DNA of 64,000 nt. Source: Lachnospiraceae bacterium. GTDB taxonomy: Bacteria > Bacillota > Clostridia > Lachnospirales > Lachnospiraceae. Position numbers and translations under genes: made by a program. The notes under the pieces were generated by a model that worked only from the letters and a program-made list of their open reading frames with translations, did no database searches and was not told where the DNA came from. Below are positions 47,587-59,402 of the stretch, in pieces. The stretch lies in contig JAIEAP010000042.1 in assembly GCA_029071325.1 (NCBI GenBank), forward strand, positions 1-64,000. The letters are read 5' to 3'. The first letter of the stretch is position 1. Every line of letters begins with the position of its first letter.

Positions 47587-47615
47587 AGTATAGCACTTTT
47601 TCATTGACAGGACAA
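47587..47615 (-). promoter_or_regulatory. Minus-strand promoter of the AP2-like gene
   Basis: On the minus strand: TTGTCC (47615-47610), a 17-bp spacer ending in TGC, TATACT (47592-47587). The -35 region overlaps the plus-strand promoter at 47604-47632. Confidence 0.7.
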
Positions 47616-47632
47616 CCGCTGTTCTTTATAAT
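47604..47632 (+). promoter_or_regulatory. Perfect-consensus sigma-A promoter, divergent from the AP2-like gene
   Basis: TTGACA (47604-47609), a 17-bp spacer, TATAAT (47627-47632): both boxes match consensus at 12 of 12 positions. The predicted start (~47639) falls at the 5' end of a closed RNA structure. Confidence 0.88.
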
Positions 47633-47638
47633 AGGCAA

Positions 47639-47793
47639 TAAGTTCAGCTATCGCCTGCATTGCGGGACAGATCATGCTTGCATGAATATGCACGCAATGC
47701 AGGTGATAAGCGGAGCGCCCGTTTTGAGCAAAGTTAGCTGCGAAGCAGTGGGAAAGCACCGGAGGTGCCTTTGCGAAGGGCGCTGGCTGAACG
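47639..47793 (+). ncRNA. Candidate structured RNA, multibranched, ~150 nt
   Basis: All stems nest. P1: GTTCAGC (47642-47648) with GCTGAAC (47786-47792). P2: TATCGCCTGCATTGCG (47649-47664) with CGCAATGCAGGTGATA (47693-47708), 16 pairs including one G-U. P3: AGCGCCC (47714-47720) with GGGCGCT (47778-47784). P3b: GCAAAG (47728-47733) with CTTTGC (47769-47774). Inside are two hairpins, CTGC-GAA-GCAG (47738-47748) and GCACC-GGA-GGTGC (47756-47768). It does not match T-box, TPP, lysine, SAM, c-di-GMP, SRP, RNase P or tmRNA patterns that I know. There is no clear terminator before thrC (47848), so it may be a thrC leader or a processed RNA. A dispersed palindromic repeat is the main alternative. Confidence 0.6.
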
Positions 47794-47847
47794 GTCACAT
47801 ATGATAGAAAAAATTATAACAGTTCATAGCAAAAGAGGTAGAAAAGT

Positions 47848-49335
47848 ATGCAGTTATTTTATAAGAGTACCAGAAATGACAGTGAGAGAGTGACAGCTTC
47901 TCAGGCAATCCTTCAGGGGCTTGCACCGGACGGCGGACTGTACATGCCGGAGACTATTCCGGCTCTGGATATAGATATGGATGTTCTGGCTAAAATGGAT
48001 TATCAGGAAATGGCATATGAGGTAATGAAGCTGTTCCTGACAGATTTTACAGAAGAGGAGCTGAAAGAGTGCATTGGCAGCGCCTACGATTCCAAGTTTG
48101 ATACGGAGGAAATTGCTCCGCTGGTGGATGCGGATCATGCGTATTATCTGGAACTGTTTCACGGCGCAACCATTGCTTTTAAGGACATGGCGCTGTCAAT
48201 CCTTCCGTACCTGATGACGACGGCTGCGAAGAAGAATCATGTCAAGAATGATATTGTGATCTTGACAGCGACCTCCGGCGATACGGGAAAGGCTGCAATG
48301 GCAGGTTTTGCGGACGTACCGGGGACGAAGATCATCGTGTTTTATCCCAAGAACGGCGTCAGCCCTATTCAGGAGCGTCAGATGGTGACACAGCGGGGGG
48401 AGAATACCTTCGTAGTGGGGATTCATGGCAATTTTGATCAGGCCCAGACCGGTGTAAAGCAGATGTTTGGGGATGAGGCGCTGGCTGCACGGCTGGATGC
48501 AGCGGGTTATCAGTTTTCTTCCGCAAACTCTATCAATATCGGACGTCTGGTGCCACAAATTGTATATTATGTATATGCTTATGCAAAATTATATGAAAAT
48601 GGAGCAATTTCAAAAGGCGAGAAGATTAATGTAGTGGTTCCCACGGGTAATTTCGGTAATATTCTTGCTGCGTACATTGCCAAGAATATGGGACTTCCTG
48701 TGGATAAGCTGATCTGTGCTTCCAACGAGAACAAAGTACTGTTTGATTTCTTCCGGACAGGGGTATATGATAAGAACCGTGAGTTTGTGCTGACATCTTC
48801 CCCGTCCATGGATATATTGATCTCCAGCAACCTGGAACGCCTGATTTACCGCATTGCAGGCAATGATGCCAAGAAGAATGCCCGGTTGATGGAACAGTTG
48901 GTGCAGGAGGGCAAATATGAGGTTACCGACGATATGAGAGCAAGGCTCACAGATTTTTACGGTAATTATGCTACCGAAGAAGAGACGGCGGAGACAATCC
49001 GAGACCTCTATGATAAAACAGGATATGTGATTGATACCCATACTGCCGTGGCATCCTGTGTATACCAAAACTATGTGAAGGAGACCGGTGATCAGACGAA
49101 GTCCGTGATTGCTTCCACTGCAAGTCCCTTTAAGTTTACAAGAAGTGTGATGAATGCCATTGACACAAAATATGATGCCATGACAGATTTTGAGCTGGTG
49201 GATGAATTGAGCAGAATCGCCAATGTAGCTGTTCCTCAGGCAATTGAGGATATCAGAAGCGCTCAGGTTCGCCATGAAACAGAATGTGAAGTGGAGGAAA
49301 TGCCTCAGGTAGTGGAGAAATTTCTGGGAATTTAA
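47848..49335 (+). CDS. thrC: Threonine synthase
   Basis: A 495-residue PLP enzyme that converts O-phosphohomoserine to threonine. It belongs to the long (clade 2-like) ThrC form: 'YKSTRNDSERVTASQAILQG', 'LFHGATIAFKDMALSILP' (PLP lysine in FKDMA), 'TATSGDTGKAAMAGF', 'SSANSINIGRLVPQIVYYVY' and 'VPTGNFGNILAAYIAK'. The upstream 300 bases hold the structured RNA and no T-box. Confidence 0.96.
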   Translation: MQLFYKSTRNDSERVTASQAILQGLAPDGGLYMPETIPALDIDMDVLAKMDYQEMAYEVMKLFLTDFTEEELKECIGSAYDSKFDTEEIAPLVDADHAYYLELFHGATIAFKDMALSILPYLMTTAAKKNHVKNDIVILTATSGDTGKAAMAGFADVPGTKIIVFYPKNGVSPIQERQMVTQRGENTFVVGIHGNFDQAQTGVKQMFGDEALAARLDAAGYQFSSANSINIGRLVPQIVYYVYAYAKLYENGAISKGEKINVVVPTGNFGNILAAYIAKNMGLPVDKLICASNENKVLFDFFRTGVYDKNREFVLTSSPSMDILISSNLERLIYRIAGNDAKKNARLMEQLVQEGKYEVTDDMRARLTDFYGNYATEEETAETIRDLYDKTGYVIDTHTAVASCVYQNYVKETGDQTKSVIASTASPFKFTRSVMNAIDTKYDAMTDFELVDELSRIANVAVPQAIEDIRSAQVRHETECEVEEMPQVVEKFLGI

Positions 49336-55321: not shown

Positions 55322-55514
55322 CGTTCCTATTCACAGTCCTCCACTCACATGCGCAAAATCAGCCGGCAAGCCGTCTGTTGCTGCTGCGCAGCGTTACATT
55401 TTACTTATGTGGTGGAGTGACTGATTACAGTCACATAAGAAGTAACATCCAGCATCCTGCAAGCAAGCTTGATGATGCTGTTTGTTACTTCTTATGCAAC
55501 TGTGAATAGTAACG
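55322..55514. repeat. MITE-like palindromic element with 16-bp inverted ends
   Basis: Terminal inverted repeats: CGTTCCTATTCACAGT (55322-55337) and ACTGTGAATAGTAACG (55499-55514), 15 of 16 matching. Inside is a long hairpin, AAGAAGTAACA (55437-55447) with TGTTACTTCTT (55483-55493), which also pairs AGCATC/GATGCT and CAAG/CTTG. A second hairpin is built on CTTATGTG...CACATAAG and TGACTG...CAGTCA. There is no transposase gene and no ORF with an RBS. It lies directly after pckA. Confidence 0.65.
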
Positions 55515-55579: not shown

Positions 55580-55776
55580 ATCGTAAAGCAAGGGCAGCCT
55601 GGGGTGTTCGATACTCCTGTTATTTTGAACCTACATTTACTTTTATGGGATTCCTATATTTCCAATTGGATGTCAGGCCTCCGTTTTGCAGTGGAAGGCA
55701 GAAGATTGGGTGCGGATACCCACCTAGCTTTGCTAGGAGTCAAAATACAGGAACCGGCATTTTGGGTCTTTGCAAA
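55580..55776 (+). ncRNA. ssrS: Probable 6S RNA (SsrS)
   Basis: A ~195-base segment starting seven bases after a good -10 box. It can fold as one long irregular hairpin, as 6S RNA does: terminal GCAAGG (55588-55593) with CTTTGC (55768-55773); an arm CTCCTGTTATTTTGA (near 55614-55628) with TCAAAATACAGG (55740-55751); the central bubble; and an apical GGCCTCC...GGAAGGC hairpin (55676-55699). A small 3'-side hairpin CCTAGC-TTT-GCTAGG is also present, as I recall for Firmicutes 6S RNA. 6S binds sigma-A polymerase as a promoter mimic. No ORF with an RBS fits here. The call rests on recalled pattern and hand folding. Confidence 0.65.
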
Positions 55777-59154: not shown

Positions 59155-59402
59155 TAGCAATATGGTAGAAATGCTTGGAAGGTGCACAAGTAGGCGTTCA
59201 TACTTTTTTCAGAGAGAGGGGATCACTGGCTGGAAGTTCCCTTAAGGTAAGGTGAAGGCTGAATTTCACACCGGAGCAGCGCGGGTGAAGCAACAGTAGT
59301 CCGTGACGTGTATACGCGTTAAGTAGAGAGAGTCTGAGTATTCAGGAATCAGGGTGGTACCGCGGAGCAGCTTCGTCCCTTTGGGATAGGCGCTCTTTTT
59401 TT
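59155..59402 (+). promoter_or_regulatory. T-box riboswitch for pheST
   Basis: The T-box sequence AGGGTGGTACCGCGG is at 59351-59365. It is followed by the terminator stem GAGC..GTCCC (59365-59379) with GGGAT..GCTC (59383-59395) and a T-run. Upstream, AGAGAG and a long stem I are present. TTC at 59265-59267, followed by A in 'GAATTTCACACC', is the likely Phe specifier. Uncharged tRNA-Phe would pair there and at the T-box bulge and allow read-through into pheS and pheT. Confidence 0.95.

Follow-up and report, generated by a model that had tools for sequence, protein, structure and literature searches.

The gene thrC, which codes for a threonine synthase of 495 amino acids, occupies positions 47848-49335 on the plus strand of the 64,000-nt stretch of DNA analyzed here (the window). 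Its closest relatives are other Lachnospiraceae genes, including orthologs that are 84% identical in MAG SUG216 and 78% identical in Roseburia inulinivorans, and orthologs within the genus fall in the same range of 78-84%. Upstream lies a promoter of the form TTGACA-17-TATAAT (47604-47632, plus strand) that matches the sigma-70 consensus at 12 of 12 positions, with an expected transcription start near 47638-47640. The space between this promoter and thrC is largely occupied by a segment, 47639-47793, for which the original prediction proposed a closed, multibranched RNA fold of five nested stems. Its minimum free energy of -73.4 kcal/mol agrees with that proposal, as none of 200 shuffled sequences is equally stable (mean -51.8, SD 3.7; z = -5.8). 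The outermost pairing, GTTCAGC (47642-47648) with GCTGAAC (47786-47792), begins 2-4 nt past the expected start, also as described.

The segment was said to resemble no common riboswitch or RNA class, and indeed no Rfam family scores above its cut-off there. Matches to miRNA families in the same scan were set aside as chance resemblances to hairpins. A T-box leader is present elsewhere in the window (59167-59383), where it scores above the Rfam cut-off. Three possible identities had been put forward for the segment: a new thrC leader, a free small RNA, or a dispersed repeat with RNA-like folding. The evidence presented below favors the third.

The full element extends a little beyond the segment first delineated, from about 47636 to 47798 on the plus strand (~163 bp). 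These boundaries rest on BLAST copies, on a covariance-model match (below) and on the target-duplication register of the family, whose consensus ends GT...AC are degenerate in this copy. The arms of the outer stem, P1, also form the terminal inverted repeat (47642-47648 and 47786-47792), and this helix changes on both sides at seven of nine pairs. Within it are two arms. The first is a long hairpin, P2 (47649-47664 with 47693-47708), that varies strongly in sequence and is nonetheless paired in every copy folded; its tip, TCATG-CTTG-CATGA (47672-47685), carries a GCTTGC loop found in 20 of 28 relatives. The second arm (47715-47783) starts with P3 (GCGCC at 47715-47719, GGCGC at 47779-47783), continues through a tandem GA/GA (47726-47727 and 47775-47776) that is invariant in all 28 copies to P4 (47728-47733 with 47769-47774), and ends in two small hairpins. 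Pair counts support P3 and P4. Of the two hairpins, P5 (GCTGC-GAA-GCAGT, 47737-47749) is supported by pair counts and a sequence-only alignment, and P6 (GCACC-GGA-GGTGC, 47756-47768) by two-sided changes at four of five pairs. In four loci of the same genome (L004, L006, L015 and L016), the second arm holds an inserted small palindrome, GCTAAGTGCC...GGCACTTGTTTAGCA, followed by CGACCGAAGCGGAGCG.

A BLAST search of the 2.88-Mb genome with the segment found 22 places including the query, 16 of them at E < 1e-8. The covariance model, R1, was built from ten copies and also gives 22 matches in this genome at E < 1e-4; its match in the window (47638-47796) scores 142 bits. At the same threshold, seven other species of the genus have 7, 2, 11, 0, 2, 3 and 3 matches, which places the element in seven of eight genus members. 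Some derivatives of 39-89 bp have lost most or all of the middle and kept both ends. The consensus ends of the family are GTAAC(A/T)(G/A)TTC...GAA(C/T)(T/A)GTTAC, with a GTTAC variant also occurring. Counts of the end pattern GTWACTRTTCA are 62 in the genome, compared with four for a reversed control pattern, and 149 versus 10 in the genome designated G003.

Direct repeats of 8 bp lie immediately outside the GT...AC ends. Among 37 non-composite elements, seven have exact repeats and six match at seven of eight positions, whereas exact duplications of 9-12 bp are absent from this set. Flanks compared over 8 bp have a mean match of 0.557, versus 0.318 for shuffled partners (z = 8.6), in a single register; other offsets with high z values (e.g., offset 1, width 10) represent the same displacement. 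A TA target duplication had been considered and was replaced by the 8-bp duplication after this register test. Copies can also be nested. At G000:C30:21126-21420, one element lies within the hairpin tip of another and is flanked by a duplication matching at seven of eight positions.

A perfect upstream promoter is present in only one of 41 copies, namely the one at thrC, and one further copy has a promoter with two mismatches. According to mechanical ORF calls, the left neighboring gene is co-oriented with the element in 16 of these copies and opposed in 25, and the corresponding numbers for the right neighbor are 21 and 20. The suggestion of a free small RNA gene is not supported, since 40 of 41 copies have no perfect promoter and both orientations relative to the neighboring genes occur.

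It had been reasoned beforehand that many copies lacking promoters or covariation would identify the segment as a mobile palindromic repeat. Copies without promoters are abundant, but compensatory change is also strong. A model-fitted alignment of 28 copies has 97.6% of its cells paired and two-sided change at 22 of 35 pairs; its covariation score is 0.366, whereas shuffled alignments score 0.121 and slid ones no more than 0.074. Eight pairs with two-sided change are likewise seen in a sequence-only alignment of ten copies. Such evidence shows that a foldback has been selected or copied, and the molecule involved need not be RNA. One-sided changes are scarce in the 28 copies (14 cells versus 119 two-sided), and G-U pairs make up 4.6% of the element's folded pairs versus 17.6% in four 6S and T-box RNAs from these genomes, a comparison based on a small sample and on energy-model folds. 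Because one-sided changes are few and G-U pairs rare, we suggest that the foldback has been copied as DNA rather than evolving as an RNA by way of G-U pairs.

Other observations point to one strand of the element being used in folded form, either as RNA or as single-stranded DNA. In 28 of 32 copies the given strand folds more stably than its complement, and mismatches within stems are more often G-T than A-C (40 versus 17; p = 0.003, with the shared ancestry of copies uncorrected). The strand bias in stability, together with the invariant GA/GA, counts against a simple transposon reading and hints at such a use. The invariant GA/GA and the excess of G-T mismatches, along with the strong covariation and several sub-threshold Rfam matches, are what might be expected of a multicopy small RNA family similar to Clostridiales-1, whose copies would be genes with transcripts that act in trans. 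We nevertheless consider this explanation improbable, given the promoter at only one of 41 copies, the low proportion of G-U pairs, and the target duplications and inverted ends that reveal transposition.

Clostridiales-1 (RF01699) is the closest relative among catalogued families. A match to this family spans 47642-47792 with 27.9 bits (E = 2.3e-4), below the cut-off of 48, and the best scores elsewhere are 39.2 bits in the same genome and 40.3 bits among the genus loci scanned. Because all scores remain below the cut-off, the element is not a member of Clostridiales-1 by the rule of Rfam. It does contain the consensus core of that family, composed of the GCUUGC tip and the UGAG...GCGAA arm. 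In both, a long hairpin with this tip precedes a second arm that has an invariant UGAG...GCGAA tandem GA, both are dispersed in multiple copies in Lachnospiraceae, and in both one strand folds better. They differ in that Clostridiales-1 has TGAT...ATCA ends, a probable 5-bp duplication and a separate third hairpin, whereas the element has GTAAC...GTTAC ends, an 8-bp duplication and two small hairpins on its second arm.

In the literature consulted, Clostridiales-1 appears solely as a candidate structured RNA (Weinberg et al. 2010, PMC2864571). We matched it in 141 of the 299 genomes sampled from the bacterial family, often with up to nine matches where nine candidates were scored per genome. 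All 26 of the Clostridiales-1 loci compared have a tip of the GCTTGC type and an ATGA...GAAT arm. Among loci L147-L176, most continue for ~30 bp beyond the limits of the Rfam model and terminate in a right end that mirrors the left (TGAT.CCAGGGTCAAAAGG / TGATGTTGGGGTCAAAAGG), which suggests that only a portion of a mobile element is represented in the model. In the flanking sequence there is a probable 5-bp duplication (z = 6.9, the highest value among 176 combinations of register and width tested) that is exact in, for example, L149, L156, L157 and L159. Given this multicopy distribution, the inverted ends and the probable duplications, we think that this catalogued “sRNA” is itself mobile, with support that is less firm than for the family in the window.

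More speculatively, the GCUUGC-capped hairpin and the tandem-GA arm might be a folded module common to several transposable families of Lachnospiraceae, including Clostridiales-1, that have differing ends and duplications. Such a module could act as single-stranded RNA or DNA bound by a host or transposition protein. We hold this idea only tentatively and judge it rather unlikely as formulated. If it were true, an entire superfamily of mobile elements would have as its functional core what is now catalogued as a small RNA family.

All seven congeneric thrC orthologs have a perfect TTGACA-17/18-TATAAT promoter located 74-118 bp upstream of the gene, and the element is absent from all seven leaders. 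Subtracting the element from the window leaves ~80 bp between promoter and thrC, which is comparable to the distances in these congeners. Because the seven orthologs keep the promoter without the element, we conclude that the promoter is host DNA belonging to thrC and that the element is a lineage-specific insertion. The expectation of a new thrC leader is not sustained by these data. Taken together, the empty thrC sites, the promoter in one of 41 copies and the mixed orientations mean that the element cannot be regarded as a conserved leader of thrC or as a gene driven by a promoter of its own. Even though the segment is very stably folded and lies entirely between a perfect promoter and thrC, a riboswitch-like or attenuator element controlling threonine synthase is very improbable, as other copies reside beside unrelated genes in both orientations and no terminator was found.

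The copy in the window looks old. Its ends are degenerate, and the putative target duplication has decayed: the left side, ATAATAGG (47628-47635, plus strand), overlaps the -10 box and matches the right side, ATATGATA (47799-47806), at only four of eight positions. A duplication is not provable for this single copy, and its insertion is therefore demonstrated by the empty sites instead. The family's left-end motif also occurs singly, as TAACAGTTCA, downstream from the element in the thrC leader (~47815-47830), where it is a possible remnant of another copy. In addition, locus L142, just upstream of the thrC gene of G001, holds TATGCAAAAGAAGCTGCAGCAGCAGCGGAAA, which is similar to the second arm of the element in L136 and may be a fragment or a chance resemblance.

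Having no transposase gene, for which ~163 bp leaves no room, the element would need to be mobilized in trans. We looked for an autonomous partner sharing these ends among host transposases, in long intervals that were opened for inspection and at IS66 loci, and found none. Two long end-to-end intervals in G003 were rejected as autonomous elements because they contain ordinary genes. DDE_3 (IS630-type), Y1 and IS66 transposases are all absent from the host genome. If the element were a REP-like palindrome mobilized on single-stranded DNA by a Y1 (RAYT) transposase, a foldback with one favored strand would be accounted for. This reading is scarcely credible in a genome without such an enzyme and is largely refuted by the duplications; clean duplications of 8 bp and inverted ends of this length are not known as traits of RAYT/REP systems.

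IS66 elements have ends that start with GTAA and generate 8-bp duplications (PMC11946415), and the Lachnospiraceae IS66 copies L222 and L237 show both GTAA ends and exact 8-bp duplications. The element shares its GTAA consensus ends and duplication length with these copies. However, IS66 ends read GTAAGCGTCAAATA (once GTAACCGTCAAATAAC), whereas those of the element read GTAACAGTTCAG, and element-like ends are not found on any of 30 Lachnospiraceae IS66 loci and two from the genus. IS66 was rejected as the partner because of these differing ends and the lack of an IS66 transposase in the host. Plasmid searches gave no match. In viral contigs one end pattern is absent, and the other has 27 single, isolated matches that look like chance. 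Our literature search found no paper on these repeats.

Bacterial MITEs include Correia elements, as well as BOX and RUP of pneumococcus. The element is similar to them in being short, intergenic and without a transposase gene, in having inverted ends and a target duplication, and in forming nested copies and internal deletions. It is unlike them in that its conserved multibranched core is common to families with different ends. On the basis of dispersed copies, terminal inverted repeats, 8-bp duplications whose fixed length is evident at the level of the family, small size, nesting, deletion derivatives and the insertion-free orthologous thrC site, we consider it very likely that this is a nonautonomous foldback transposable element (MITE) of a kind found throughout Lachnospiraceae.

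A transposase supplied in trans would presumably recognize the GTAAC...GTTAC ends. The enzyme was probably a DDE transposase that has since been lost or is located elsewhere. In this lineage, the copy inserted behind the thrC promoter appears to have entered between the -10 box and the region of the ribosome-binding site. The structured strand would then be transcribed as a by-product, forming the initial ~160 nt of the thrC mRNA. Any effect on thrC is most likely mild; for example, the stem near the 5′ end may shield the mRNA from 5′-end-dependent decay. Ligand sensing or attenuation by the element is not supported by the available evidence.

This example demonstrates that a transposable insertion can be what underlies a striking fold with strong covariation downstream of a perfect promoter. 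Recognizing as a class these repeats, which are very common in Lachnospiraceae and have defined ends, should help the annotation of gut genomes and avoid false calls of RNA genes. Matches to GA-cis RNA (RF02987) adjoin or cross ends of the element in G001 (L138:1459-1549 and L128:1368-1458). Another foldback element in the window (55323-55513) is diverged and has ends of the GTTACTATTCAC type; it is a weak R1 match on the minus strand and lies ~80 bp upstream of the gene for 6S RNA (55593-55772).
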